Shown here piece after piece: positions 29,987-62,928 of a stretch of DNA of 64,000 nt. Positions within the stretch are counted from its first letter, which is position 1, and every line of letters starts with the position of its first letter. Under the pieces are notes generated by a model. The model saw nothing but the letters and a program-made list of their open reading frames with translations, was not told where the DNA came from and searched no databases. Source of the stretch: Spirochaetales bacterium (GTDB lineage Bacteria > Spirochaetota > Spirochaetia > DSM-2461); the NCBI GenBank assembly GCA_016936295.1, contig JAFGYD010000215.1:1-64000 (forward strand), read 5' to 3'. A program made the position numbers and the translations under genes.

Positions 29987-31624
29987 CTATTTAAAGTCTA
30001 GAATTATTGCACCATCCCAGGACTCCGGAGGGTTAATTAAAAATTTTTTACATCTGTTTATATATATTTCCACAATTCTGTCGGAGGGTAACAAGCTGTA
30101 ACATATATTAAAATAGTCCAGAGCAAAGTTCCAATTCCCCAGGGAAAACATTTTTATACCTTTATTGTAAGTATGTATAAAATTCTCAGGATAAAAATTT
30201 AAATCTTCTGCAGAGTATATAGTAGTTGCTTCTTTTTTCCCCTGAACCATAACTGTGTCCACAATTCTAAACTCCGTTTTGGAATTTTTTCTCTTACAAG
30301 CCTCAAAAACTGTATTTGAAACCAAGATATTTACATTGTAATACTTACATAAAGACTCTAATCGGGCTGCTAGATTAATTGTATCACCTATAGCTGTATA
30401 ATCGAAATTATCTTCGGAGCCAATATTTCCAATAATTGCTTTACCAATATGTATTCCTATTCCTATTTTATAATTTTCTGGACATGACTCAACAAACTCA
30501 ATCATCTCTTTTGCCGCATTTAAAGCCCTTTCTTCGTTATCATTAAAACTTAAAGGTGCTCCAACCATTGCAAAAACTGCATCTCCAATAAATTTGTTAA
30601 TCTCTCCTCCATAGGATTTAATTCTGGTGGATAATCCTGAAAAATGTTTATTGAGAAAGTTAACTACACCTTCTGCAGAAAGGGTTTCTTCTAACTCATT
30701 AAATTTCTTAATATGAGAAAATATAACGGCTACTTCTCTTTTTTCTCCAGTCATTAAACTCTTTGTTGTTTTTCTATTTAATAAATCATCTACAACTTTT
30801 TCTGGAAGAAAATTTTTAAAAAGATAGTTTAACTTTTGAGCTTTCTCTACGTTGTAATTATATCTGTAGTTTTCGTGTAAAATTTTAGTAATAACATCTA
30901 ATGCAAATTTTAGATTATATTCTTCCTCTTTTGATTCAGATAAAAATTCTATAAAAATTGAAATATTATCCTTCTCTATTTTAAATTTTTGATACTCATT
31001 CTTATAATTATTAAACTTTTCAAAAGTTTTTTTATAATTTTTATTACCAAAATTAATATTTAGACTTGATAGAGTAAATGACGAAAAGAGTATAGTAAAA
31101 AAACTTTCAATTAGTATATCCATTGTTTCGAGAATAAGAAAATTTTCTAAAAGTTTTTTTACAAAGATGTTTTGAATGTCTCTATTTTGGTAAATTTTAT
31201 CAATATCAAGAAGAATTTCAGTTTCACTTTTTGAAATACTTTCAGGAGTTGAGATTCCATCTATTTTGCTGTATTTATCAACTTCGTTAATAATTTTTTG
31301 TGCAAAATTTTCATCTCTTCGAATAAAGGAATCTGCTTTATTAAAATAAATATCATTCATTGTATTTGTTACTGTAGAATACATAATTACAGGTATAGAT
31401 GCTAAATATTTATCATTTTTAATATATTCTAGGGCATCGGCTCCCCTTAAATCCTTTAATAACGAACTAATAATTAAAAGATTGGGAGGATTTTTATGTA
31501 TCTCTATAATGCCTTCTATGGCATGGCTAAAGCACTCTACTTCAAAATCTTCTTTTGACTTTAATTCAGTAATTAGAGTTTTTGATAGGGATTTTGAATT
31601 TTCAAGACAGATAATTTTAATCAT
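29987..31624 (-). CDS. Pseudo-receiver + class III nucleotide cyclase (C2-like: metal Asp-1 replaced by His)
   Basis: Cyclase core VAVIFSHIKKF..INKFIGDAVFAMVGAP..DYTAIGDTINLAARLES; N-terminal receiver-like fold with PNLLIISSLL. Confidence 0.88.
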   Translation of the reverse strand: MIKIICLENSKSLSKTLITELKSKEDFEVECFSHAIEGIIEIHKNPPNLLIISSLLKDLRGADALEYIKNDKYLASIPVIMYSTVTNTMNDIYFNKADSFIRRDENFAQKIINEVDKYSKIDGISTPESISKSETEILLDIDKIYQNRDIQNIFVKKLLENFLILETMDILIESFFTILFSSFTLSSLNINFGNKNYKKTFEKFNNYKNEYQKFKIEKDNISIFIEFLSESKEEEYNLKFALDVITKILHENYRYNYNVEKAQKLNYLFKNFLPEKVVDDLLNRKTTKSLMTGEKREVAVIFSHIKKFNELEETLSAEGVVNFLNKHFSGLSTRIKSYGGEINKFIGDAVFAMVGAPLSFNDNEERALNAAKEMIEFVESCPENYKIGIGIHIGKAIIGNIGSEDNFDYTAIGDTINLAARLESLCKYYNVNILVSNTVFEACKRKNSKTEFRIVDTVMVQGKKEATTIYSAEDLNFYPENFIHTYNKGIKMFSLGNWNFALDYFNICYSLLPSDRIVEIYINRCKKFLINPPESWDGAIILDFK

Positions 31625-31626
31625 TT

Positions 31627-33186
31627 TTAATCTATTACAGAGTGTAAACTATACTCTTTCCCATCTATATTTTTTTTCTCTAAAAAAGTTCCATTACAAA
31701 ATTTTGCAACTTCTCCTGTTATAAGTATTGGTGTCTTATATTTTTTTGTTAGACTTTCAAGTTCTTCTGCAACCGATGCTATTTCTCCAATAGAAGTATA
31801 TGCCTTTTTTTCTTTAGAACCGATATTTCCAACTATTGAGTCTCCTACATGTAGACCAATTCCAATGTTAAACCCTATAGGAGGTAGAACTATATTATTC
31901 GTATTTACTTGTGAAATAGAACTTATCATTTTTTTTGCAGCATTTACCGCTCTTTGTTCTATATTATCCATGTTTTCCGGTGCTCCAAAAATTGCCATAA
32001 TAGCATCACCTATAAATTTATCAATAATACCACCTTCGTCTTTTATACATTTTACCATAATATTAAAGTAGTTATTTAGTAAGCTTACAACATTTTCGGC
32101 ACTGTTCTTTTCCGAAATTGTAGTAAAAGATCTAATATCAGAAAATAGAATACATATTCTTCTTACTTCTCCAGTTCTATTAATTTCTCCCTGGGCAAGT
32201 AACCTTTCTATCAGTTTTTTAGGTATAAATTTTGAAAAAACATTTAATGTGTTCTCATTTCTATTCTGGGCTATTCTGTATTCAACCCCATTATGTAGTA
32301 GTGATCCAATACTATAAAAGTGTTCAGTTAAAATCTCTCTAATCTCACTATTGTTAAAATAGTTATTAATAAAGTTTCCAACATGTATGGTTCCTATAGT
32401 TTCTCCATTAGGATTGTATAAAGGTGAGTAAAAATATGAACTAATTTTGTAATTTTCTAAATCCATTGAATTAAACTCTTGGGATGAAATATTGCTTATA
32501 AATGTGTTCTTTATTCCCTCTAAATTTATACCATGAAAATTCTCGTAATGATTATGTAGGCAGAAGTTATTAAAATCATCAAAACTTACTTTTTTAATTT
32601 TATTAGAAATCCAGGAGTAAGATTTTGTCTCTCTACCTTCTTTTAGTATAATAATTATTATATCATTAGGTGTAATTGTGTTTAATGACTTAACTAAATA
32701 AGAGATGGTTTTTTCAATAGATTCAATTTCATACCCAGCATTCAAAAGATAGTTATTTATAGTATTCTGTCTTGAGTTGTGGCTAAAAACAAGTTTTGTT
32801 ACAATTTCAATTTCTGTTGTTTTATTATATGGTTCTCTTCTCTTGCTCTCCATGTTTTGTTTAGCAAAAAAGTCTTGGATATATTCCGGTGTAAATTGAC
32901 TATATGTCACATAGTCATTGTAATTAGTAAGTTTGAATTGAAGTAGATCAAAGTTCCTTATATATTTAGCCACTATAACTATTGGAATATTAATTAAGCA
33001 TGGGATGTTGTTTATTAATCTAAGCAACTGAAGGATATTACTACTATTATCCTCTCTATCAATGCAGATCATCCCTATGTTTTTAAATATCTTTGTTGTT
33101 AATACATTGAAATCAGGTTTTATTCGCTTGTATGGATGTTCTGTTTCAATATTTTTAGTATTGCTAATAATAAGAATTTCATTCAT
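31627..33186 (-). CDS. Sensor-like N-terminus + class III nucleotide cyclase (C1-like: transition-state Asn/Arg replaced)
   Basis: Cyclase core ICILFSDIRSFT..IDKFIGDAIMAIFGAP..AYTSIGEIASVAEELES; central GAF-like region. Confidence 0.88.
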   Translation of the reverse strand: MNEILIISNTKNIETEHPYKRIKPDFNVLTTKIFKNIGMICIDREDNSSNILQLLRLINNIPCLINIPIVIVAKYIRNFDLLQFKLTNYNDYVTYSQFTPEYIQDFFAKQNMESKRREPYNKTTEIEIVTKLVFSHNSRQNTINNYLLNAGYEIESIEKTISYLVKSLNTITPNDIIIIILKEGRETKSYSWISNKIKKVSFDDFNNFCLHNHYENFHGINLEGIKNTFISNISSQEFNSMDLENYKISSYFYSPLYNPNGETIGTIHVGNFINNYFNNSEIREILTEHFYSIGSLLHNGVEYRIAQNRNENTLNVFSKFIPKKLIERLLAQGEINRTGEVRRICILFSDIRSFTTISEKNSAENVVSLLNNYFNIMVKCIKDEGGIIDKFIGDAIMAIFGAPENMDNIEQRAVNAAKKMISSISQVNTNNIVLPPIGFNIGIGLHVGDSIVGNIGSKEKKAYTSIGEIASVAEELESLTKKYKTPILITGEVAKFCNGTFLEKKNIDGKEYSLHSVID

Positions 33187-35200
33187 TAATACTTCCTAGG
33201 AGTTCTTTTACGTTTTTAAGCAGCTTATCTCTATTAAAATTAGATTTTAAATAGACTGCTTTTGCCCCTATATCCATGAATTTATCAATTTCCTTATGGG
33301 TTTTTGAAGATGATAGAACAATAATTGGGGTATCCCCATACCCCTTTTCTTTTTTTAGGTTTTCAATAAATGTTGCACCATCCATTCTTGGCATATCAGA
33401 ATCTGTAATTATTAAGTGGAAATAATCTTCCTTTATCTTTTGCAATGCATCAATACCATCGTTAGCCATTTCTACAGAGAAACCACTTCTTGAAAACATA
33501 TTTTGTACAATGCTTCTGTTTATTGAACTATCGTCAATTATTAAAATCTTTTTGTAATCGACACTATCTTTTGCATATCTTGTATTAAATTCTATATTTC
33601 TTATACATTTGAGTTGATCTGTAATTTTAGGAATATAGAGAATATTTACAATATTAAATTCCTCATCAAAAACCACCCCTTGTATTGAACTTAAACCCTC
33701 AATATTATTGGGAAGTCTTTTGTAAATTGCAGAGGAGTGGTATAAAATTTCATCTATAACTATACCAATACTTTCATTGTTGATTTTGCATATAATAATA
33801 AAAAGTTTATTTGCCGGTTTTGATGTTTTATCATCCAAAATACCAGAAAGAGGATAAATAGGAACAATTTCATCCCTTAGTTTAACAGCTTGCCTGGTAA
33901 CAAGGTCTAATATATTTTCTTTTTGAACAGTAATGATTTCATTTATATAGGCCGATGGGATAAAAAACTTTTCTCCACCAGAAACTATAAAATATCCTGT
34001 TATTGTAGTTAGTGATTTAGGAACTGTAATTTTTACCATTACTCCAGAACCTCTATCTGAAAAGACGTTAATAGAACCCTTAATATTTTTTATGCAATCT
34101 TCAGCATTAGAAAGCCCCATCCCTTGAAATTTTTTACTTGATGAGACTCCCTCCATAAATGCAAATCTTAAAAGCTCATTTTCTGTTAATTCCAATATTC
34201 CTTCTTTATCGTGGGGGAAAATCTCAATACTTCTCTTTCTTATTTTTTCAAAGTCTATACCGCATCCATTATCACTTATTTCAACTGTAATTTTTCCACT
34301 TTCCTCTATATATTCAATATTAATTTCTCCTGTAGTCTCAATGCCATGGATAATACTATTATTGATTATATTTATTATTGGGGACTGAATATTTTGAAGT
34401 ATAAGTTTATCAATTATTATAACCTTATTAGGTAGATTAACTTTTATATCTTTACCAGATTCTTTTATAGTTTTGTTAACACCCTCTAAGATATCATTAT
34501 GTATAATTGATATAGGAAGCATTCTAAGGGCTAAAATTTCATCTTGAAGATTATTAGATCCTAACTCTATTTTAAGAATTTGAGATTTAATACTGTTGTT
34601 AATCTCGTTGTATGTTCTTTGATGTTTTGGTTCTATTTCTATCTGTTCAATTTTTTCTATAGTTGTTTTTAGTTGGTACTGATTTAATATTAATTCATTT
34701 ATATTTTTAATCATTGAATCTATTTTATTTAATGTAACACTTACTTCTTTTGAACTATCTAATTTAATCTCCCCGGAATTTATTGAAATTTTACTTTGAG
34801 TTTTTATAATGTCATTAACATAGGATTTATTTATATCTGTTGGTTCTTCGGAAGCAATACCACTATAGGTTTCCATAATATGCTTTATAGAGAAATTATT
34901 ACTCTCCTTATTATTGGTTCCTAAAATTTTTTTAATATATTCACATGTTACAAGAAGAACCTGTTTATGTTTTGCAGAGAATGAAAATCTTCCGCCATGT
35001 AGACCATCTAGTACCTTTAGTAATCCATGGAGTAACTCTTCTATTTTGGGGTAGTTATAAACCTTGGATATACCCATAATTGTAACAATTATTGTGTGTA
35101 TTTTCTTTAAATCAACTTTTTCCTGGTCTTTAATATTAATTAAGACAGTAAGTTCTCCAATATAATCGAGAATTTCTTGTTCGAAGTTATTTTCGGGCAT
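33179..35200 (-). CDS. CheA-like histidine kinase with C-terminal receiver domain
   Basis: Degenerate HPt (KKIHTIIVTIMGI), HATPase (NNSIIHG, SDNGCGIDF, GMGLSNAEDC), CheW-like domain, intact REC (IIDDSS..IITDSDMPRMDG..LKS). Confidence 0.88.
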   Translation of the reverse strand: MPENNFEQEILDYIGELTVLINIKDQEKVDLKKIHTIIVTIMGISKVYNYPKIEELLHGLLKVLDGLHGGRFSFSAKHKQVLLVTCEYIKKILGTNNKESNNFSIKHIMETYSGIASEEPTDINKSYVNDIIKTQSKISINSGEIKLDSSKEVSVTLNKIDSMIKNINELILNQYQLKTTIEKIEQIEIEPKHQRTYNEINNSIKSQILKIELGSNNLQDEILALRMLPISIIHNDILEGVNKTIKESGKDIKVNLPNKVIIIDKLILQNIQSPIINIINNSIIHGIETTGEINIEYIEESGKITVEISDNGCGIDFEKIRKRSIEIFPHDKEGILELTENELLRFAFMEGVSSSKKFQGMGLSNAEDCIKNIKGSINVFSDRGSGVMVKITVPKSLTTITGYFIVSGGEKFFIPSAYINEIITVQKENILDLVTRQAVKLRDEIVPIYPLSGILDDKTSKPANKLFIIICKINNESIGIVIDEILYHSSAIYKRLPNNIEGLSSIQGVVFDEEFNIVNILYIPKITDQLKCIRNIEFNTRYAKDSVDYKKILIIDDSSINRSIVQNMFSRSGFSVEMANDGIDALQKIKEDYFHLIITDSDMPRMDGATFIENLKKEKGYGDTPIIVLSSSKTHKEIDKFMDIGAKAVYLKSNFNRDKLLKNVKELLGSINE

Positions 35201-36024
35201 TAAGAATTCCCCCTTTTTATAAAATAAAATGATTTTCCATTTTGAAGAAGTTCCAATTTGGGGTGGGATGTTGTTGCAGTATTCGAACTGGAAACAAAGA
35301 GGTAGCCATTATCATCTAATACTTCAACTGCCTTATCTATAATTAATTCCCTGATTTCTGGTTCCATATAGATTAGAACATTGCACAAAAATATTATTTT
35401 AGGTTTAGTTTTAAAAAGAGGTTTATAATCATCGATGATTAAATTGAGTTTTACAGTATGTATAGAGTCCAGAATTTTTTTATTTAAAGAGAAATTTTTT
35501 CCATCGGTAGTACTGCAATTATGTAGCAGATAGTGAAAGTCTTTTCCATCTTCTCTAAAGGAATTGGGAGTATATATGTTTTTATTAATTTGATTCATGG
35601 AGTTAATGTCAATATCTGTAGCGATAACTGGTCTGTTTATATAATTTGAACTATTCCAGAATTTATTAATTAGCAGAGATAGGGATATTGCTTCCTCTCC
35701 TGTGGAGGCTGCACCACTCCAGACTGTAGGTGGTGTTGAATACCTCTCTCTCATTTCGGGGAGAATTATGCTATCTAAAAGTTTAAAATATTTTTCTTCT
35801 CTAAAGAAATACGTTTCATTAATAGTAATGGCATTTATTAATTGATAAAATTCCGTTTCACTTTTTTTTATTATTTGAATATATCTATCCATAGAATTTT
35901 CAAGATTTTCAAGTTTGGATTTTAAAAATCTTTTGGTAGCATTGATATTTGATTCAGGTACAACTATTCCTGTTTCATTTAAAATAAATTGGCTAAGAAT
36001 ATTGAATTCATCTGCTTCATTCAT
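35200..36024 (-). CDS. cheR: Chemotaxis protein methyltransferase CheR
   Basis: NETYFFRE, WSGAASTGEEAISL, IIFLCNVLIYM. Confidence 0.92.
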   Translation of the reverse strand: MNEADEFNILSQFILNETGIVVPESNINATKRFLKSKLENLENSMDRYIQIIKKSETEFYQLINAITINETYFFREEKYFKLLDSIILPEMRERYSTPPTVWSGAASTGEEAISLSLLINKFWNSSNYINRPVIATDIDINSMNQINKNIYTPNSFREDGKDFHYLLHNCSTTDGKNFSLNKKILDSIHTVKLNLIIDDYKPLFKTKPKIIFLCNVLIYMEPEIRELIIDKAVEVLDDNGYLFVSSSNTATTSHPKLELLQNGKSFYFIKRGNS

Positions 36025-36995
36025 TTTATTTCCTTTTGGGTGACACTAATTAAATATTCTGCAATTTTGTCCAGCGGTAGTATAACACTAGCGGCTCCTA
36101 GTTCGATTGCAGCTTTAGGCATTCCAAATACTGTAGATGTTGCTTCATCCTGTACAATTGTTTTTCCCCCGTGTTTTAGAATTTCAACACAACCTTTAGC
36201 GCCATCTCTTCCCATCCCAGTCAATAGAACACCTAAAAGGTTTTCTTTGTAAGATTTTGCTGCAGTAGTAAATAGAACATCAACTGCGGGTTTTTGAAAT
36301 TCAACCTTATCCTCATCGGTATAGTAAAATACTTTATTTCTAACAGAGAGGTGCTTTCCTTGTTCTCCCATTATTATTTCTCCTGGTAGGGGAGTGTCTT
36401 TATCCCTGGCCATTCTTACTTTAAGTTTACAACTTTTGTTAAGCCAGGTAGCCAAACCCTCTTCATGTCCCTCTTCCATATGCTGAACTATGGATATTGG
36501 AATTGAAAAATCTTCGGGCAGTTCATCTAAAACTTTTTTTAATGCATTTGGGCCTCCTGTAGAGGAACCAATTACTATATGTTCAATTTTAGATTTAGAT
36601 ATTTTCTGGTGAACCTTTCTGGTTTTTTCATGTTTTTCTGCAGTACTAACTAACTCTTTAATTAGCTCATTATGATAATTTTTATCTGATAATTTATCCA
36701 TTTGTGGCTTAGGTATAATTTTATCTGGTACTGCTTCTCCCAGAGTTTCAGAACCACCCATAACTACAATAGGTATATGAGTATCTTTTTGTAGTGATAA
36801 AATTATATCTTTCTCAGATGCGTGTGACAGGTTTTCTCCTAATATAACCAGATCTGTGTCGCAGGTTTTGGCTATTCTTATAATTTCTTCACCATCCGAT
36901 GTTAAGCATATTATATCGTTTCCGGCTTCGGTTAATATTTCACTTAGCATATTTCTTAAAATTACAGAGTTATTACCAATTATTATGTTCATCAT
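36021..36995 (-). CDS. cheB: CheB-type protein-glutamate methylesterase with degenerate receiver
   Basis: Methylesterase triad in GSSTGGP, VQHM, LTGMGRDG; receiver lacks the acidic residues. Probable ATG near 36995 or 36992; ORF track start 37013. Confidence 0.9.
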   Translation of the reverse strand: MMNIIIGNNSVILRNMLSEILTEAGNDIICLTSDGEEIIRIAKTCDTDLVILGENLSHASEKDIILSLQKDTHIPIVVMGGSETLGEAVPDKIIPKPQMDKLSDKNYHNELIKELVSTAEKHEKTRKVHQKISKSKIEHIVIGSSTGGPNALKKVLDELPEDFSIPISIVQHMEEGHEEGLATWLNKSCKLKVRMARDKDTPLPGEIIMGEQGKHLSVRNKVFYYTDEDKVEFQKPAVDVLFTTAAKSYKENLLGVLLTGMGRDGAKGCVEILKHGGKTIVQDEATSTVFGMPKAAIELGAASVILPLDKIAEYLISVTQKEIK

Positions 36996-37524
36996 TTCCT
37001 CCGGTTTGACCAATTGAATTTAAAAGAATCTTGTCTATGTCTATAAAATATTGAATTCTGTCATTTTCGAAAAAACAGTACTGTATTCCCTTTTCTTCGA
37101 ATTGATCTTTATATATTTTAGATAGGGATTTAAAGGCATGAATACTATTTTTTTTTATTTCAGATTTACTTGTAATAGAGAATGATATTAGTTCTCTTGT
37201 AATAGATTCATTGCACTTACTAAAGATTTTTTTTAATAATTCCTGGGTTTTAATAGAGAACTGATCTATCTTGGAGATTATGCAGATCTTTGATAATGAA
37301 TCGATCTCAATTTTAAAAATATCTTCAAGGTATTGATCCAGGTTAAAATTAAGGATTTTCTCCTGTCCATATTCAATTACATCCTTAAGATACTTTGAAT
37401 CTATATCTACATCCATTTTTTTGTTGAAGGAGACACTACTGGAAAACCTGTTTCTATCAACAATAAAATCTTTATATTTATAATGTATAAATAAAAAGTC
37501 CCTATAGACACTATTTGATATCAT
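36973..37524 (-). CDS. Uncharacterised protein embedded in the chemosensory operon
   Basis: ORF of 183 aa overlapping both neighbours; no recognised domain. Confidence 0.65.
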   Translation of the reverse strand: MISNSVYRDFLFIHYKYKDFIVDRNRFSSSVSFNKKMDVDIDSKYLKDVIEYGQEKILNFNLDQYLEDIFKIEIDSLSKICIISKIDQFSIKTQELLKKIFSKCNESITRELISFSITSKSEIKKNSIHAFKSLSKIYKDQFEEKGIQYCFFENDRIQYFIDIDKILLNSIGQTGGNDEHNNW

Positions 37525-37960
37525 GTTTTATTTTCCTAATAACAGATTCAATTTCCAGAATTGGAATTTCCACCCCTTCTATGGAGATAGAGTTGTTAAA
37601 AAAATCTCCACCTTCGGAGTGGGAAGTTATAGGATGAATTTCTTTTTGATCAATATTAACGATCTTAGAAATTTCAGTTATAATTAAGGCCAATTTATCG
37701 GTTTCATCCCTAATAATAATATATTTCTCGGCTTCTAATCGCTCTTGTTCAAAAAGAACCTTTATATCAACAACAGTGTATGGTTCTCCATGCCTATTAA
37801 TTAGACCACGGATATAACCAGGGATGAAAGGGAGATAGTATACTTTATACCCAATTATTATCTCTCTAACCATATTCCCCGGTAGAGCATAAACCTTTTG
37901 ATCTATATTAAAAATTACAAACTTAACTAACTCAATATTTTCGCTGGTTTTATCACTCAA
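37511..37960 (-). CDS. cheW: CheW-like adaptor
   Basis: KFVIFNIDQKVYALPGNMVREII..PFIPGYIRGLINRHGEPYTVVDIK. Likely TTG start at 37960 overlapping the MCP stop; ORF track start 38032. Confidence 0.85.
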   Translation of the reverse strand: MSDKTSENIELVKFVIFNIDQKVYALPGNMVREIIIGYKVYYLPFIPGYIRGLINRHGEPYTVVDIKVLFEQERLEAEKYIIIRDETDKLALIITEISKIVNIDQKEIHPITSHSEGGDFFNNSISIEGVEIPILEIESVIRKIKHDIK

Positions 37961-39959
37961 GATCTGTCCCTTCCATTTTATTTTCCAATTTATACTTGGA
38001 TAAGATATTTTCAAGCTTTTCAGAAACACCAACTAAAGAATCAGATGCACCTGCTGTCTCTCTAGTTGCCCCTGCAATATTATCAACACCTTCAGATATC
38101 TGTTTAATTGCGATTAATATCTGCTCAAATGTCACAACTTGCTGGTTAATAGATTTTGAAATTTGTTTAGTAGAGTCGCTAGAGGTTTCTGCTGTACTTA
38201 AAATATCTTTAAACATTGAATTTATGTCTTTTGTAAGATTATTACCCTCTTTTATTTTTTCTGTTCCATCTTCTGAGGTTAGAATTAATTGGTCTGAAGA
38301 TTTCTGAATTTCTGTAATTCTCTCTTTTATTTCATTTGTAGAGTGTACCGTACTGTCTGCTAGTCTTCTAATTTCTGTAGCTACAATTTGGAAATTCTTA
38401 CCAGCTTCTCCTGCTGCAGATGCTTCTAGCTCCGCATTAAAAGCAATTATTTTTGTTTGATCTGCAATTCCATTTATCATGTTAACTATATTCCAAATGT
38501 TATCTATCTGCTCACTTAGAAATTTAATACCATTTATTGTAACTTTATTAGCATCATTTATCTCTTCCATTTTAGTAATGCTTTCTGTTACCTTTTCAAA
38601 TCCGCTTTTTACAATTGTTTGAGTATTATCTGCAATATTTGTTATTTCCTGAATTTTTTTCTCAATGGATTTTGAAAGCTGATCTACATCTTCCATTGTG
38701 CTAACAATTTCTTTTACTGCGGCTGCCTGCTGATTAGCTATAGAAGAAGTCTCTTGGGAGGATGAAGATAGATTTTGAATAAGTTCAACAATTTTATCTG
38801 TTATAGCTCTAAGGTTATTTAGAACTTCTTTATATCCACCAATGAAATTATTAAAATCTAATCCCATTATATCAATTTCATCCCTAAAGATTGGGTAGGC
38901 TGTAGATTGATAGGTTGGAGTAAGGTCTCCTTTATTGGAAATTTCAAAAATAGTTTGAAATTTATTTATTTTATTTGAAATCATTTTTCCAATTATTATT
39001 GATAATCCAAGAAATATAATAATTGCTACTATACAACCAATAACAATGAGTAGATTTACAAAATTTAAAGGCTCATACAGTATCGATTTTACAACACCAA
39101 CGCAAACAAGCCAATCAAGTTCTTCTACATAGGAAAAATACATTATTCTCAGTGTTGGTTCTTCTTCTTCTGTGTTTGCCCACAAATATTCCAATCTTCC
39201 ATTTTTTTGTAGCAACATTTTTTTAACAAAATCGTAATTACTTATATTTTCGTTCTCTTTTTCTTTATGGGCAATTAGAGTTCCTGTTCCATCCAGTACA
39301 TAGGAATAGCCTCCAAAAAGTGTTCCTACATTTAGTAATTCCTCTTTAAAATCGTTAATATCTATTAAGCTTTTAAACTCAGATTTATAACTTGCCGGCC
39401 AGATTATTAAATCCCATGGTTCAAAATATGTAATATATCCTACTTTTTTTCTTGGGGCTGTTTCATCGGTATTCTGCCAGTCGTACTCAAAATAACCCTC
39501 TTTGTCTTTTGAATTTAACGATTCCTGAACTTTAGGCCAAAAAGAAGCTCCTGAAACATTAACACCTTCGGATTTAGGATGAACTGCAAGAACACCATTC
39601 CCGGAAACTATTGCTAAATATCCAGTATCTCCAACTTTACCAAATTGTGGATCGAGTACAATTTTTCTAATCTCTTCCATAGCTTGGTCTTTAGTTAATT
39701 CTCCCTGTAAAAACTTGTTATAATAGTGTTCAACAATGTTTTTACCCTTATCACTTGCAGTTTTAAGAGTCTTTTTTGTCGAAACATCGATAATATTAAC
39801 TAGCTCTTGCCTTGCCATTATAGAACCTGATTTAAGATGCTCTTCCTGCAGTGTTAAAATTGTATTTTTAACAACTAATTGAAGAATAAATCCTACTAAT
39901 ACAAAAATTACTAATGATGCTCCTCCAAAAATATAAATCATCTTACTGCTTGTTTTCAT
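37953..39959 (-). CDS. Methyl-accepting chemotaxis protein with tandem Cache-type sensor
   Basis: N-terminal TM, extracytoplasmic region with GDTGYLAIVSGNGVLAVHP and SYVLDGTGTLIAHKE, HAMP, signalling region NGIADQTKIIAFNAELEASAAGEAGKNFQIVATEIRRLADST. Confidence 0.93.
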   Translation of the reverse strand: MKTSSKMIYIFGGASLVIFVLVGFILQLVVKNTILTLQEEHLKSGSIMARQELVNIIDVSTKKTLKTASDKGKNIVEHYYNKFLQGELTKDQAMEEIRKIVLDPQFGKVGDTGYLAIVSGNGVLAVHPKSEGVNVSGASFWPKVQESLNSKDKEGYFEYDWQNTDETAPRKKVGYITYFEPWDLIIWPASYKSEFKSLIDINDFKEELLNVGTLFGGYSYVLDGTGTLIAHKEKENENISNYDFVKKMLLQKNGRLEYLWANTEEEEPTLRIMYFSYVEELDWLVCVGVVKSILYEPLNFVNLLIVIGCIVAIIIFLGLSIIIGKMISNKINKFQTIFEISNKGDLTPTYQSTAYPIFRDEIDIMGLDFNNFIGGYKEVLNNLRAITDKIVELIQNLSSSSQETSSIANQQAAAVKEIVSTMEDVDQLSKSIEKKIQEITNIADNTQTIVKSGFEKVTESITKMEEINDANKVTINGIKFLSEQIDNIWNIVNMINGIADQTKIIAFNAELEASAAGEAGKNFQIVATEIRRLADSTVHSTNEIKERITEIQKSSDQLILTSEDGTEKIKEGNNLTKDINSMFKDILSTAETSSDSTKQISKSINQQVVTFEQILIAIKQISEGVDNIAGATRETAGASDSLVGVSEKLENILSKYKLENKMEGTDLE

Positions 39960-55577: not shown

Positions 55578-56120
55578 ATGAACTTAGCAAATAAATTAAC
55601 CTTAAGCAGAATATTTATGATTCCAATTTTCATATATTTTTTGCAATTAAATACAGACAATGGAATCCTTATTTCGGGTGTTGTATTTATTCTCGCATCA
55701 ATTACAGATTTTTTTGATGGTTACATTGCCAGATCTAGAAATATGGTAACAAAATTTGGGAAATTTATGGATCCTTTAGCTGATAAATTGTTAGTAATTT
55801 CTGCATTTATATATTTTGTAGCCCTGGGAATGGTTCCTGCTTGGGCCGTTATTCTTATTATTTCTAGAGAATTAATTGTATCAATTTTTAGAGCTATTGC
55901 AGCTGCAGATGGTGTTGTTATCGCCGCAGGATCACTTGGTAAATTTAAGACTGTAAGTCAAATGATTACAATAATTTCATACTGCCTACTTCCTCTTTAT
56001 AGAGACTATGTGCTTTTCCCTCTTCCTTTAATTTTATTCTATATTTGTACTTTTTTCACTATACTTTCGGGAATTGACTATATAGTAAGAAATAAAAATG
56101 TATTAAAAGATGTAAATTAG
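55578..56120 (+). CDS. pgsA: CDP-diacylglycerol-glycerol-3-phosphate 3-phosphatidyltransferase
   Basis: CDP-alcohol phosphotransferase motif DFFDGYIARSRNMVTKFGKFMDPLADKLL. Confidence 0.94.
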   Translation: MNLANKLTLSRIFMIPIFIYFLQLNTDNGILISGVVFILASITDFFDGYIARSRNMVTKFGKFMDPLADKLLVISAFIYFVALGMVPAWAVILIISRELIVSIFRAIAAADGVVIAAGSLGKFKTVSQMITIISYCLLPLYRDYVLFPLPLILFYICTFFTILSGIDYIVRNKNVLKDVN

Positions 56121-57190
56121 AAATTATTTTCCCTTACATATCTTTCTATTTCTCCTGCAATTTTATTTAGGGGTAGTACAATATTTGCTGCCCCGTATTC
56201 TACGGCTTTCCCTGGCATACCCCATACAATACTCGATTCCTGATCTTGAACAATGTTATAACTTCCGTTATCTTTCATCTCTTTCATAGCCTTTGAACCA
56301 TCGTCTCCCATTCCTGTAAGCATAACGCCAATAACATTTCGTCCTGCATAATTAGCAGCCGAGTTAAAAAGAACTGTAACAGAAGGGCAGTGATAATGGA
56401 CTTTGGGCCCTTTTCTTAATTTTATATAGTATTTTGCTCCTTTTGATTCAATAGAGCAATGCTCCTCACCAGGCGATATGTATACAAAACCTCTTTGTAT
56501 TCTATCTCCATCTTTGGCAAGTTTTACTGTAAGTTTTTTTACGGCATTATTTAATCTATCAGCAAATTGCTGTGAGAAATTAAGGGGTAGGTGTTGCACA
56601 ATCACAATTCCGGGTATATCTGCTGGTAAATCTTCCAATATGTCTTTAATTGCAGTTGTACCCCCAGTGGATGATCCAATAACAATAAGTTTTTCAGTTG
56701 TGTGTCTATTACTTGTAAATTCCTTAGATGACTCTTCACTTTTTCTTTCAATCTTGTTCTCTTGAGACTTATACTGTTTGATAAGTTTATTTTTTACGGT
56801 ACTAGATCCTGCGTTAAGAATTGCTTGTACAATATCCCCCTTTAAATTTTCTAATTGAAGTAGATCATCGGGTTTAGCAAGAACATCAAAAGCTCCTAGT
56901 TCAAAAGCTTGAAGTGTTATATTTGCGTTCTTTTGTGTTAAAGAAGATAGAATTATAACTGGAGTTGGTTTTGCCTGCATAAGTTTGTCTAAGAATGTTA
57001 ATCCATCCATTCTAGGCATCTCAATATCTAGTATTATTACATCTACATCGTATTTTTTTAACTTATCCACCGCAAATATAGGATCAAATGCTGTGTCTAC
57101 CAAATGCATTCCTGGCGATTCATTTATAATATCAGTTAGAACTCTTCTAACTAATGCCGAATCATCTACAACTAAAACTCTAATACTCAT
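56117..57190 (-). CDS. cheB: CheB methylesterase (canonical receiver)
   Basis: VVDDSALVR..VIILDIEMPRMDG; GSSTGGT; VQHLP; LTGMGDDG. Confidence 0.95.
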   Translation of the reverse strand: MSIRVLVVDDSALVRRVLTDIINESPGMHLVDTAFDPIFAVDKLKKYDVDVIILDIEMPRMDGLTFLDKLMQAKPTPVIILSSLTQKNANITLQAFELGAFDVLAKPDDLLQLENLKGDIVQAILNAGSSTVKNKLIKQYKSQENKIERKSEESSKEFTSNRHTTEKLIVIGSSTGGTTAIKDILEDLPADIPGIVIVQHLPLNFSQQFADRLNNAVKKLTVKLAKDGDRIQRGFVYISPGEEHCSIESKGAKYYIKLRKGPKVHYHCPSVTVLFNSAANYAGRNVIGVMLTGMGDDGSKAMKEMKDNGSYNIVQDQESSIVWGMPGKAVEYGAANIVLPLNKIAGEIERYVRENNF

Positions 57191-57192
57191 TT

Positions 57193-58011
57193 TTAAATCC
57201 TTTTATATATTGTTTTCCCTACTAGTGAAAACATGTCAGAAATACCAGCTAGTGTTTCACTATGGCCTAAAATAAGGTACCCACCAGGTTTTATATATTT
57301 ATGTAATTTATTTACTAAATTAATTTTTGTCTCTGAATCAAAGTATATAATTACGTTTCTAAGAAATATAACATCCATCAATGGTAGGTTATATGTATTG
57401 TCACTAAGATTTAGTCTAAAAAACTTAATTTTTTGTATTAATTCTGGTTTAATTAATACTAATCCTTCTTTTTCATTGTTGCCTTTTAGGAAATATTTAT
57501 TTCTTATTGGTGTAGGAATATTTTCAATCTCATTGATATCGTAAACTCCTGTAGATGCAGTTTTTAACACATTTCTTGAGATATCTGAAGCAAACAATGA
57601 GTAATTTAATTTTTTATTATTACCTAGTTCGTACTCTTTGATTGTCATTAGGATCGAATATATCTCCTGCCCTGTGGAAGATGCTGCTGACCATATATTT
57701 AAAGAATTTTGATTGTTTGGTAATATCTCTTCTCTTAAAAAATCGAAATGATGAGACTCTCTAAAAAATAGAGTGTAGTTAGTTGATATAATATCTATCA
57801 TTGTTTGGAATTCTTCACCATAATTATCTCTTTTTAAGAGCTCTATATATTCTGAAATTGTAGGTATCTCTAATTTTCTAATCCTTTTGGAAAGTCTGGA
57901 TAAAACAAGAGATTTCTTTTTTTCTGTTAGGTTTATATTTGCATAGGAGTAAACTTCTTTTGAAATGTAGTTAAAATCTTCGTCGGTTAGATGATACATA
58001 AATCTCCTCAA
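57193..58011 (-). CDS. cheR: CheR methyltransferase
   Basis: FFRESHHFDFLRE, WSAASSTGQEIYSI, VIFLRNVIIYF. Confidence 0.94.
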   Translation of the reverse strand: MRRFMYHLTDEDFNYISKEVYSYANINLTEKKKSLVLSRLSKRIRKLEIPTISEYIELLKRDNYGEEFQTMIDIISTNYTLFFRESHHFDFLREEILPNNQNSLNIWSAASSTGQEIYSILMTIKEYELGNNKKLNYSLFASDISRNVLKTASTGVYDINEIENIPTPIRNKYFLKGNNEKEGLVLIKPELIQKIKFFRLNLSDNTYNLPLMDVIFLRNVIIYFDSETKINLVNKLHKYIKPGGYLILGHSETLAGISDMFSLVGKTIYKRI

Positions 58012-58616
58012 TAAAGTGTAATATCTGGTTTGAATTTTAATTCTTTAAGTTTTTCTTTATACTTTAGCTCTTCTTTTATTACACGGTCTGTAATTATTTT
58101 CTTAACAAAAACAGAGCTTGTTCCTGTTAAAAAGTAAATTCTTCTCCCATAAGTATCGCTTACGCTTTCATTTTCAATCGTTATTTGTTCTGTATTTAAA
58201 TAGGATTTTGCAAATTTTATATTTTGCTCTCCTATAGATGGTTTTTTAGTCATGTTGCTAAGTATTTGTCCCCCACCAAAGATTTTTGCCCGTAAATTCC
58301 TTCTCTCTGCCCCTTTCTTCTGCATCATATAAATTAATACATCCATAGACTCAATACCATACATCATAGCTTTATCTGATATATGTGATATATTTAAATG
58401 AAGATCTTTAGTTATTAATTCATTTATATTTAAAGATCCCTCTGGCAACATAAAATGATTCATCCCTGCAATATTATTCTCTAAGTCGTATAAACACACA
58501 GCTACACAAGATCCAAGGATTGTTGTTATTATCTCCTTAGAACTACTTATATAATACTCTCCTGGGTAGATAGTTATAACTTCGCTTTTAAATCTATGAT
58601 CATAGGATTTATGCAT
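58008..58616 (-). CDS. cheD: CheD chemoreceptor deamidase
   Basis: TILGSCVAVCLYD, GMNHFMLPE, AKIFGGGQ. Confidence 0.92.
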   Translation of the reverse strand: MHKSYDHRFKSEVITIYPGEYYISSSKEIITTILGSCVAVCLYDLENNIAGMNHFMLPEGSLNINELITKDLHLNISHISDKAMMYGIESMDVLIYMMQKKGAERRNLRAKIFGGGQILSNMTKKPSIGEQNIKFAKSYLNTEQITIENESVSDTYGRRIYFLTGTSSVFVKKIITDRVIKEELKYKEKLKELKFKPDITLY

Positions 58617-60606
58617 TTATTAAACTTGGTATATCAACAATTAATGCAACTGTTCCATCTCCTAATATTGTTGCACTAGTTATATGATCCACTTTGCTAA
58701 AGTTTTTTTGCAGAGATTTTAATACTACCTGATACTGTTCTAAAACATAATCCACTAATATAGCAACTTTCAATCCAGCTGCATTTACAACTATTATTTG
58801 ACCTTCTGCTGGATCATTTATATATTGGGGAATATTGAAAACTGAGTGAAGTCTTAATAATGGAATATAGCTCCCCCTAAAAAGTACAACTTCTTTACCC
58901 CCGGATATAGTTTTCAGGTCTTTTTTCTCAGCCTTAAAAATTTCTAAAATTGATAATGTAGGAATGATATATTTTTCTTCACCAACAGAAGTCAGCATTC
59001 CGTCTAGTATAGCTAGAGTTAATGGTAAATTGAGTTTAAAGGTTGTACCTTCGCCCTCTATACTTGCTAGGTCTATTGTTCCGTGAAGTTCATTTATTGT
59101 ACTTTTTACCACATCCATACCAACTCCACGTCCAGATATATCAGTTACAACTTCTGCAGTTGAAAATCCAGGGTGAAAAATTAGTGATAATATTTCTAGA
59201 TCTGTTAATTTTGTCTCTGGTGTAATTATCTTACGTTCAATAGCCTTTGCAATTAGTTTTTCCCTATTGATACCTTTCCCATCGTCTGAAACTTCAATAA
59301 CTACTTTGCCGCTTTCCAGATATGCAGAGAGTTTTAATAAGCCCTCTTCCGGTTTTCCAGCATTTATTCTCTCCTCTGCTGTTTCAATTCCGTGATCGAT
59401 ACAATTTCTAACCAAGTGTTTCATTGGGTCATTTAGTTTTTCAATCATATTTTTATCAAGTTCTGTATCATGGCCTGAAAGTTCAAGCTTTATCTTTTTC
59501 CCCATATCGTTAGCCATATCTCGAACAACCCGTTTAAACCTGTCAAAGGTACTTCCTAAATTCATCATTCGTAGTGATGTGACCTGTTCCTGAAGTAGTT
59601 TATTCTGATTTCTAAGCGCATCCGTAACGGTTTCTAAACTGTCTGGTATAATATCGCTGTACTCCTCGACTAGAGTATTAAGTCGTGCTTGAGAAATTAA
59701 AAGTTCACTAACCGTATTAAATATCATTTCCAGTTTCTCTGTAGGAACCCTAATGTAGGATGATTCTGTTATTATAGGAGTTTTTACCAAATCGGATTCT
59801 GTTGTATTAGTAGTTTCATTTTTCACTATATTATAGTCTAAAATTGTTTTGTTATTTATTGTGTATTTAGATATAAGTTCTTTCTGATCTAATATATCCG
59901 ATAGGTTTACGAATTCAAGTTCCGATTCATCTATAACAAAACAAAAAATGTCTTTTAATTCGGCTATACTCTTGTTTGTTGAAAAAAATAGTTTCCAAGA
60001 CATATAGAATTTTTCTGGATCAAAATCTTCAGGATCGTAATCTTCGGTAAAATATTGATATATATCTATAATTTGCCCAATTTTTTTTAAGTCTGAAATG
60101 AACATTAAAGGATCTATCCCTACAAGGAAAATATTTGAGAAATAATGAAGTTTAATATAATATATATCCTCGTCTACCTTTTTCTCAATTTTTACTTCTG
60201 AATCATCAATTTTTTTTTCATTTTCTTTTAAAAGCATGTTGTTAATAGTTTCTTCTAAATTCTTTGTATTCACACCTTTTTCTGGACTTTCATTATTTTT
60301 TATATTTTCTAGCATTACCCTAATTATATCCATAGAGTTAAGAATTACAGATATAACTTCCTTTTCTATTTTTATTGACCCATTTCTGATGCTTTCAAAA
60401 AGATCTTCTACTATATGGGTAAAATCTTTCATATGGGTGAATCCTGCTAAACCAGCCCCACCTTTGATTGAGTGCATAGCTCTAAAAGCATCATTTATTT
60501 TAGTGTTATCATCAGGATTTTCTTCGATGTAAATAATCAAGGATTCCAGGACTTGTAAATTCTCATCTGCTTCTTGTATAAATATATCATGTAGTACATT
60601 TTCCAT
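58609..60606 (-). CDS. cheA: CheA histidine kinase
   Basis: HPt AMHSIKGGAGLAGF; LVRNCIDHGIE; GRGVGMDVVKS; C-terminal CheW-like domain. Confidence 0.96.
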   Translation of the reverse strand: MENVLHDIFIQEADENLQVLESLIIYIEENPDDNTKINDAFRAMHSIKGGAGLAGFTHMKDFTHIVEDLFESIRNGSIKIEKEVISVILNSMDIIRVMLENIKNNESPEKGVNTKNLEETINNMLLKENEKKIDDSEVKIEKKVDEDIYYIKLHYFSNIFLVGIDPLMFISDLKKIGQIIDIYQYFTEDYDPEDFDPEKFYMSWKLFFSTNKSIAELKDIFCFVIDESELEFVNLSDILDQKELISKYTINNKTILDYNIVKNETTNTTESDLVKTPIITESSYIRVPTEKLEMIFNTVSELLISQARLNTLVEEYSDIIPDSLETVTDALRNQNKLLQEQVTSLRMMNLGSTFDRFKRVVRDMANDMGKKIKLELSGHDTELDKNMIEKLNDPMKHLVRNCIDHGIETAEERINAGKPEEGLLKLSAYLESGKVVIEVSDDGKGINREKLIAKAIERKIITPETKLTDLEILSLIFHPGFSTAEVVTDISGRGVGMDVVKSTINELHGTIDLASIEGEGTTFKLNLPLTLAILDGMLTSVGEEKYIIPTLSILEIFKAEKKDLKTISGGKEVVLFRGSYIPLLRLHSVFNIPQYINDPAEGQIIVVNAAGLKVAILVDYVLEQYQVVLKSLQKNFSKVDHITSATILGDGTVALIVDIPSLINA

Positions 60607-60607
60607 A

Positions 60608-60979
60608 CTAAGCTCCTATAAAACGTTTTATAAGTTCTAGTAAAGTAGACGGCTCAAATGGTTTTACAATCCATCCACTTGCACCGGCTTTTTTACCTTC
60701 AATTTTCTTTGATTTTTGAGATTCAGTTGTTAAAAATAATATAGGTGTGTATTTATAAGTTTCTATTTTTCTAACATTGTTTATTAATGATATTCCATCC
60801 ATGTTTGGCATGTTTATATCAAATATAAATAGATCTATATCACCCTTGAAATTCTGTATTTTTTTTAATGCATCAACACCGTCGGAAGCTAATTGAACAT
60901 TAAAGTTTTCATTTTTAAGAGTTAATTCAATTGATGCACGAGCTGTAGGGGAATCATCTACAGCGAAAATAGTTTTCAA
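60608..60979 (-). CDS. cheY: CheY-like response regulator
   Basis: FAVDDSPT..LFIFDINMPNMDG..WIVKPF. Confidence 0.95.
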   Translation of the reverse strand: MKTIFAVDDSPTARASIELTLKNENFNVQLASDGVDALKKIQNFKGDIDLFIFDINMPNMDGISLINNVRKIETYKYTPILFLTTESQKSKKIEGKKAGASGWIVKPFEPSTLLELIKRFIGA

Positions 60980-60992
60980 AGATTTTCTCCTT

Positions 60993-61577
60993 TTATTGTC
61001 CTAATACCTTTACACTTTTTTCTAAAGCCTCAGCTTCTTTGTCTGTTAAAAATCGGTTTAAATTCATTAGAATAATCATTCTGGATCCAATTCTTCCTAT
61101 TTTATCAACAAAATTTATATCTATAGAGCTGTTAAAGTCAGGTGTTTCACTTAAGTTCTCGGCTGAGATACTTAATACGTCAGATACTGAATCAACAATA
61201 AATCCTACAGTTTTCCCATCTCCTATTTGTGCAATTATAACAATTGTGTTTTCATCAAGTTCTTTGACATCCAATTTAAATCTTCTTCTGAGCATATAGA
61301 GAGGAATAATGTTTCCCCGTAAATTAATAATTCCTGGAATATAGTCCGGAGCCCCGGGAATTCTAGTAAGATTAGGAATTGAGATAATCTCTTGTACAGA
61401 CAAAATAGGAACCCCATACTCCTCGTTTGCAAGTGAAAAAACTACATACTGATTGGTTATATCCATATTTAGCTGGGAGACTAATAAATCCTCTTCTTCT
61501 GAATCCTCATCAATATTGGAAATTTCTGATAAACGTTCATTTAACTGCTCAATATCTGTATTTTCAAATTCTTTCAT
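60993..61577 (-). CDS. cheW: CheW adaptor
   Basis: YVVFSLANEEYGVPILSVQEII..PDYIPGIINLRGNIIPLYMLR. Confidence 0.95.
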   Translation of the reverse strand: MKEFENTDIEQLNERLSEISNIDEDSEEEDLLVSQLNMDITNQYVVFSLANEEYGVPILSVQEIISIPNLTRIPGAPDYIPGIINLRGNIIPLYMLRRRFKLDVKELDENTIVIIAQIGDGKTVGFIVDSVSDVLSISAENLSETPDFNSSIDINFVDKIGRIGSRMIILMNLNRFLTDKEAEALEKSVKVLGQ

Positions 61578-61599
61578 AATAATTCCTTCCGCCCTTTAT

Positions 61600-62928
61600 T
61601 TAAAATTCCGAAAAATCAGAACTATCTGCCATTTCGGAGAATATTTCATAAGCCTCAGATTTTGGCTCATTTTTAACAACTGGTTTCTTTATCTTTACTT
61701 CTGGATTAACCGCAATTTTAACTTCTGGTTTCTTTATCTTTACTTCTGGATTAACCGCAATTTTAACTTCTGGTTTCTTCACCTTTACTTCTGGAGTAAC
61801 AACCTTCTTCATCTCTTTTGTGACTGTTTCCTTAGTTTTTTCTGTTTTAAAGAAATTTAATAATTCATTTAAGTTAAAAGAAAGATCCAGTAATTTACTT
61901 GTAGAAGAAGTGGCTTCTTTTGCAAGATGGGCATTCTCCTGGGCTGTTGAATCAAATTCAGAAATTGTTTTATCAATTAAATCTGCACTTGAAAGTTGTT
62001 CGTGGGACGAAGCAGAAATTTCACTAACTAAGGCTGTTACTTTTTTTACAGCCACACTTATTTGATCTAACATCTCTCCTGCGTTAGTTGCAATTTCTAC
62101 ACCTTCTATTACTTTTTTATTACTATCTTTTATTATATCAGCAATCTCTTTCGCTGCTTTATCAGATCTTTTAGCTAACTTTCTTACTTCAACAGCAACA
62201 ACTCCAAAGCCTTTTCCATGCTCACCAGCCCGTGCTGCTTCAATTGATGCATTTAAAGCTAAAAGATTAGTTTGAAAAGCTATGTTATTCATAACCAAAA
62301 TAATATCTGAAATTTTATCACTTGATTTATTAATATCATTCATGGATTTAATCATGGAATTAACAGCAGAAGTTCCATTATTCGTTTTATCAAGGGCATC
62401 TCGGGATAGTTGATCTGCAAGTCTTGTATTGTCTGCGTTTGATTTAATTGATGAATTCATCTGAATAATTGCTGAAGATGTTTGCTCTACAGATGATGCT
62501 TGAGTATTTGTTCTTTCTGTAAGATTTTTATTACCTTCAACAAGCTGTTTTGTTGTTATACTTATATCTGTTGAATTACTTTGAAGGGATTGTGCTATAT
62601 TAGAAAGATTTTTTCTTAAATCTTCTAAAGCTTGGTTAAATTGATCTATTTCACTTTTATCCGACGTTACTACTTTAGTAGAAAGATCTCCTGAAGATAA
62701 TTTTTTTGCTGTTGATATACTCTCATTAATTTTAGAAAGTATTTTATTTGCATTAAATAATATAAAAATAAAATAGAGAAATGATAATAGTATTAGTGTT
62801 ATTGGATAAATCATTCCATTTGAAGCACTACTTCTTAAATAAAAAATCAATGTAATTATTACATTTAACAAAATAAAAACAATAAAACTTAGAAATAGAT
62901 ATTTTTTATATTTTGAGTTAAGAATCAC
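61600..62928 (-). CDS. Methyl-accepting chemotaxis protein with minimal periplasmic loop and PEVK-like C-terminal linker
   Basis: [44 protein letters not shown]-terminus [15 protein letters not shown] repeats ending SSDFSEF. Confidence 0.94.
61681..61800 (-). repeat. Tandem repeat: two identical 45-bp units plus a diverged partial third
   Basis: TGGTTTCTTTATCTTTACTTCTGGATTAACCGCAATTTTAACTTC at 61681-61725 and 61726-61770; partial at 61771-61800. Confidence 0.95.

Follow-up and report, generated by a model that had tools for sequence, protein, structure and literature searches.

The adjacent genes cycA and cycB, located in a 64,000-nucleotide stretch of DNA from a Spirochaetales bacterium (contig JAFGYD010000215.1; hereafter the window), probably encode the paired subunits of a single class III nucleotide cyclase that is an obligate heterodimer, as judged from their sequences. 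Class III cyclases build each active site from two chains, and in the mammalian adenylyl cyclases C1 supplies the metal-binding Asp residues and C2 the Asn and Arg. CycA and CycB have lost opposite halves of this site, the losses recur in distant relatives, and the ancestral version of the enzyme is a single intact gene, so that function by the mixed pair only is very probable.

Active-site residues of CycA and CycB

The gene for CycA (31627–33186, minus strand) precedes that for CycB (29987–31624, minus strand), with a two-base gap between them. The open frames lie on the minus strand, and the plus strand at these coordinates contains many stops. CycA is composed of a degenerate receiver-like domain, a GAF-like domain, a helical linker, and a class III cyclase domain that carries the metal-Asp half of a site; it lacks a C-terminal TPR-like tail. 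CycB folds similarly into a degenerate receiver domain, a GAF-like domain, a helical linker, and a class III cyclase domain that carries the Asn/Arg half, followed by a C-terminal TPR-like tail. The cyclase domains of the two products are recognized by the PF00211 profile with scores of 73.2 and 78.2 bits, against a cut-off of 21.9. In AlphaFold2 single-chain models (pLDDT 83.7 and 86.2), a receiver-like fold is followed by a GAF-like domain, a long linker helix, and a cyclase domain, and the PDB structures that match these models best are class III cyclases. Fold matches also relate CycA to the alpha chain and CycB to the beta chain of soluble guanylate cyclase (sGC), and sequence profiles pair CycA with mammalian adenylyl cyclase C1 and sGC-alpha, and CycB with C2 and sGC-beta.

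In terms of active-site residues, read as minus-strand codons on the DNA, CycA has the first metal Asp, Asp350 of the FSDI motif (32137–32139), Lys390 (32017–32019), the second metal Asp, Asp394 of the IGDA motif (32005–32007), and Thr464. Between Ser471 and Glu475 (31762–31776), the Asn position is occupied by Ser471 (31774–31776) and the Arg position by Glu475 (31762–31764). In CycB, His304 of the FSHI motif takes the place of the first metal Asp (30713–30715); Lys344, Asp348, and Thr410 are present, and the segment from Asn417 to Arg421 (30362–30376) keeps the ribose and transition-state residues, Asn417 (30374–30376) and Arg421 (30362–30364). These codons bear out a preliminary description of the two genes, according to which CycA keeps its metal Asp residues with Asn and Arg replaced by Ser and Glu, and CycB has exchanged the first Asp for His and kept Lys, Thr, Asn, and Arg. 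The complementarity that was proposed there stands insofar as opposite halves are lost, but it is not total, as the base-contact Lys and Thr stay in CycA and the second Asp stays in CycB. Lys together with Thr at the base-contact positions is the rule for class IIIb adenylate cyclases. The residues observed here agree with the class IIIb pattern that had been suggested from the Thr, and from this Thr a class IIIb adenylate cyclase is predicted as the most likely type of enzyme.

Neither CycA nor CycB contains the complete set of metal, Asn, and Arg residues that a single chain of the homodimeric bacterial type carries. The observed arrangement, with the two Asp residues and the Asn/Arg pair on different chains, is that of the C1/C2 or alpha/beta type and is kept in the orthologues. 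Among about 177 distinct catalytic domains, a set drawn mostly from Spirochaetota and biased to relatives of the CycA/CycB family, replacement of the first Asp by His, or of Asn and Arg together, is confined to members of the CycA/CycB pair; the only other clear loss of the metal Asp residues is in a fused sAC-like protein of the window's genome.

Orthologues and origin of the pair

Whole-genome searches reveal 13 CycA and 14 CycB orthologues, and genomes that carry the pair are spread over several families of Spirochaetota and over more than one of its classes. Twelve adjacent tandem pairs, each on one contig, are found in the window, G002 (the same genus as the window's organism), G004, G006, G009, G011, G014, G080, G411, G418, G438, and G455. 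In G085, which provides the thirteenth pair, CycA and CycB are on separate contigs, each at a contig end. Both Asp residues are kept and both Asn and Arg are lost in all 13 CycA sequences (S, T, A, G, E, or R at the Asn position; E in 11, otherwise L or A, at the Arg position), and in all 14 CycB sequences the first Asp is replaced by His, with Asn and Arg retained. The split is thus kept in every orthologous pair examined; close relatives with complete sets in both genes, which the preliminary description had named as evidence against the pair, are not among them. Co-occurrence across relatives, also raised there, was assessed in about 400 genomes of the class: nine have both genes, none has CycA alone, and one (G007) has CycB alone. 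This lone CycB counts against the pair, though it is seen on a truncated contig of 2.15 kb that starts inside CycB. Among named genomes, a first scan with the CycA sequence alone as the query gave no matches, and a second scan with an alignment as the query returned chiefly ordinary cyclases, together with G002 and the single-gene operons of Treponema.

A version of the operon with one cyclase is present in G041, G068, G281, G370, G436, Treponema records, and others (the contigs of G285 and G303 cover a partial operon or the cyclase alone). The residue set of these single-gene cyclases is complete, DDKTNR or DDKSNR, and they are composed of a receiver, a GAF-like domain, a linker, a cyclase domain, and a TPR-like tail, with the receiver intact in several. 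In a tree with the motifs included, all CycA sequences fall on one branch side and all CycB sequences on another (support 97/94 and 98/89), and with motif and trait columns masked and more pairs added, CycA forms one group (89/91) and CycB another (88/93). When only the catalytic domain was used with wide motif windows masked, the remaining 122 columns were too short an alignment to bring CycA and CycB each together; the grouping is regained when the linker is included and masking is limited to the motifs. The sister of the pair is G068 in the motif-included tree, a placement that is not stable in two motif-masked, linker-included trees. The subclades of CycA and CycB mirror each other (distance correlation r 0.91, Mantel p 2e-4), as would also be expected from co-inheritance alone. 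Tandem duplication of a single complete cyclase followed by complementary loss, with one duplication and joint inheritance, fits these sequence relationships. The operon may also have been transferred horizontally, given that the copy in the window clusters with those of other classes.

The chemosensory operon

CycA and CycB close a chemosensory operon, MCP-CheW-X-CheB-CheR-CheA-CycA-CycB, that was absent from the preliminary description. On the minus strand, the genes upstream of the cyclases encode an MCP chemoreceptor with a dCache_2 sensor (37953–39959), CheW (37511–38032), X, a conserved operon protein without a Pfam match (36973–37524), a CheB methylesterase in which the receiver phospho-Asp is replaced by Gly (36021–37013), a CheR methyltransferase (35200–36024), and a CheA-type protein with an intact C-terminal receiver, in which the phosphorylatable His of the HPt-like domain is replaced by Val (33179–35200). 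X is found in every pair operon with full context and in many single-cyclase operons too; its assignment as a degenerate CheW is unsupported by profile comparison (3.5 percent). Signaling through the chemoreceptor, CheW, and CheA presumably controls the cyclase. The cNMP-binding proteins encoded in the window's genome are possible receptors for a cAMP-type signal.

Loss of the HPt His from the operon CheA characterizes the window's subclade, with Val in the window, Thr in G002, and Glu in G080. The residue is also replaced, as judged by eye, by Gln in G418, Asp in G411, and Thr in G438, and is intact in the relatives G004, G006, G009, G011, and G014. In CheB, the window and G002 lack the receiver Asp. 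At 56117–62928, the window also has a second chemotaxis cluster, of canonical type, which encodes CheB, CheR, CheD, CheA with an intact HPt (58609–60606), CheY, CheW, and an MCP. The operon CheA-type protein is possibly turning into a CheV-like receiver that would be fed by another CheA. In a subset of Treponema with the single-gene cyclase (loci L083–L086, L179, L180, L182, L185, L188, and L190), the CheA homologue is about 500 amino acids long in complete copies, has no recognizable HPt His or ATPase, and keeps an intact receiver, and is in this sense CheV-like.

The degeneration of both cyclase receiver domains, together with the loss of the CheA His in the window's subclade and of the CheB Asp in the window and G002, would also be consistent with a pathway whose parts are being abandoned, in which CycA and CycB are both dead pseudoenzymes and serve the chemosensory array as outputs that bind nucleotides or act as scaffolds. 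We regard this as unlikely, however, as one full catalytic set is distributed across the two chains in 13 of the 13 genomes that have both, and purifying selection is strong where it was measured.

Constraint on the half-sites and relation to known cyclases

If one site is formed from the metal half of CycA and the Asn/Arg half of CycB, conservation of each half is expected only in the chain that uses it, and the pattern of sequence entropy agrees (9 CycA, 10 CycB, and 13 single-gene sequences). The loop of the first metal Asp (D1 loop) has an entropy of 0.44 in CycA, 1.05 in CycB, and 0.47 in the single-gene cyclases, and the Asn/Arg motif one of 0.77, 0.09, and 0.42, respectively; whole-domain entropy is similar across the three sets. 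Solved cyclase structures place the triphosphate-binding Arg and Lys on opposite chains (PMC2576301, PMC3591389), and two further positions were checked after these papers had pointed to such residues. The VKGK Lys, which belongs to the Asn/Arg chain, is present in 13 of 14 CycB sequences, the window's CycB being the one with Gln, and in 1 of 12 testable CycA sequences. On the metal chain, the loop Lys beside the Arg position, equated only approximately with adenylyl cyclase Arg484, is present in 13/13 CycA and 7/14 CycB sequences. Comparison of G004 with G009 gives dN/dS values of 0.044 for CycA, 0.050 for CycB, and 0.013 for the CycB catalytic domain, which are rough because dS is high and indicate purifying selection.

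The same residues can be read in another way, with CycA as a regulatory pseudo-subunit and CycB as an active homodimer in which the metal is bound by the His and the one Asp that is left. CycB retains Lys, the second Asp, Thr, Asn, Arg, and the C-terminal tail, the His could in principle bind metal, and its invariance (14/14) while its neighbors drift may reflect a role. Yet the whole D1 loop is relaxed in CycB relative to the single-gene cyclases (1.05 versus 0.47), the loop Lys is gone in half of the CycB sequences, and CycA has a fully conserved metal site that a regulator would not need, all of which makes an active CycB homodimer quite improbable. Gene decay or an assembly artefact after duplication, which the fragmented assembly of the window's genome (81 percent completeness) might bring to mind, is contradicted by conservation in orthologues, as the identical pattern recurs with intact frames in independent genomes (pairwise identity 0.38–0.92) and dN/dS is about 0.05 in the pair measured, and can be dismissed.

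In the heterodimer that we favor, CycA would bring the two metal Asp residues and CycB the Lys, Thr, Asn, and Arg, plus the triphosphate Lys in most relatives, to give exactly one complete site and a dead mirror-image site. Dimerization, activity, and product are inferred here from residues, conservation, adjacency, trees, and the pattern of constraint. A caution is that the Lys and Thr of CycA and the second Asp of CycB are not strictly required in an enzyme with one site, and the Gln at the VKGK Lys in the window's own CycB likewise counts against this reading. Because the Lys, Thr, and second Asp stay in place, the dead site may serve as an allosteric nucleotide pocket. A more elaborate proposal, which we consider doubtful though worth stating, is that an exchange of charges, with the Asp-to-His change of CycB facing the Arg-to-Glu change of CycA, has remodeled the dead site into a lock that favors the heterodimer or into an allosteric pocket, and that in one subclade the chemoreceptor array that drives the enzyme has a CheA that is no longer able to autophosphorylate at the usual His.

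The proposed arrangement is reminiscent of the mammalian transmembrane adenylyl cyclases, with CycA as the C1-like Asp/Asp chain, CycB as the C2-like Asn/Arg chain, and one site complete and the other dead; it differs in that CycA and CycB are separate soluble bacterial chains with the class IIIb Thr, receiver and GAF domains, and no membrane anchor, and in that the second Asp persists in CycB and the Lys in CycA. As in sGC alpha/beta, the chains are separate, the metal residues are on a different chain from Asn/Arg, homodimers are expected to be inactive, and the profile and fold matches have the corresponding orientation. Unlike sGC, CycA and CycB have residues typical of adenylate cyclase, sit in a chemosensory operon, would derive from an independent duplication, and have only receiver-like and GAF-like N-termini, with no H-NOX sensor domain as in mammalian sGC. 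The chytrid rhodopsin guanylyl cyclases form exclusively heterodimers of two paralogous cyclase chains (PMC8815786), but are eukaryotic, light-sensing membrane proteins. CyaC, CyaB, Cya2, and Rv1625c resemble CycA and CycB in catalytic fold and sequence and, unlike the proposed pair, homodimerize. Bacterial class III adenylyl cyclases in general are homodimers, and the C1/C2 form is attributed to duplication in eukaryotes (PMC9552081); a literature search of partial coverage yielded no description of a natural heterodimeric bacterial class III cyclase. As far as that search reaches, what would be new is an obligate pair of unfused chains that serves a chemosensory operon as its output and whose one-gene ancestor can still be recognized. 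It would appear to be an independent bacterial rerun of the duplication from homodimer to heteromer, and with the intact one-gene ancestor persisting in related operons, the step to an obligate heterodimer becomes testable by swapping or reconstituting natural proteins.

ADCY10-type proteins likewise show complementary losses between two cyclase domains, and differ from CycA and CycB, which are separate genes with one cyclase domain each, in being a single fused chain with a long C-terminal region. The window's genome encodes, outside the CycA/CycB operon, a 1412-residue ADCY10-like protein with two fused cyclase domains (L015:1348–3483, plus strand; L254, genome contig C168). Its first domain has both Asp residues without Asn/Arg, and its second domain lacks both Asp residues and keeps Asn/Arg. 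The principle of complementary loss is therefore not alien to bacteria, and the novelty lies in an unfused, operon-linked pair.
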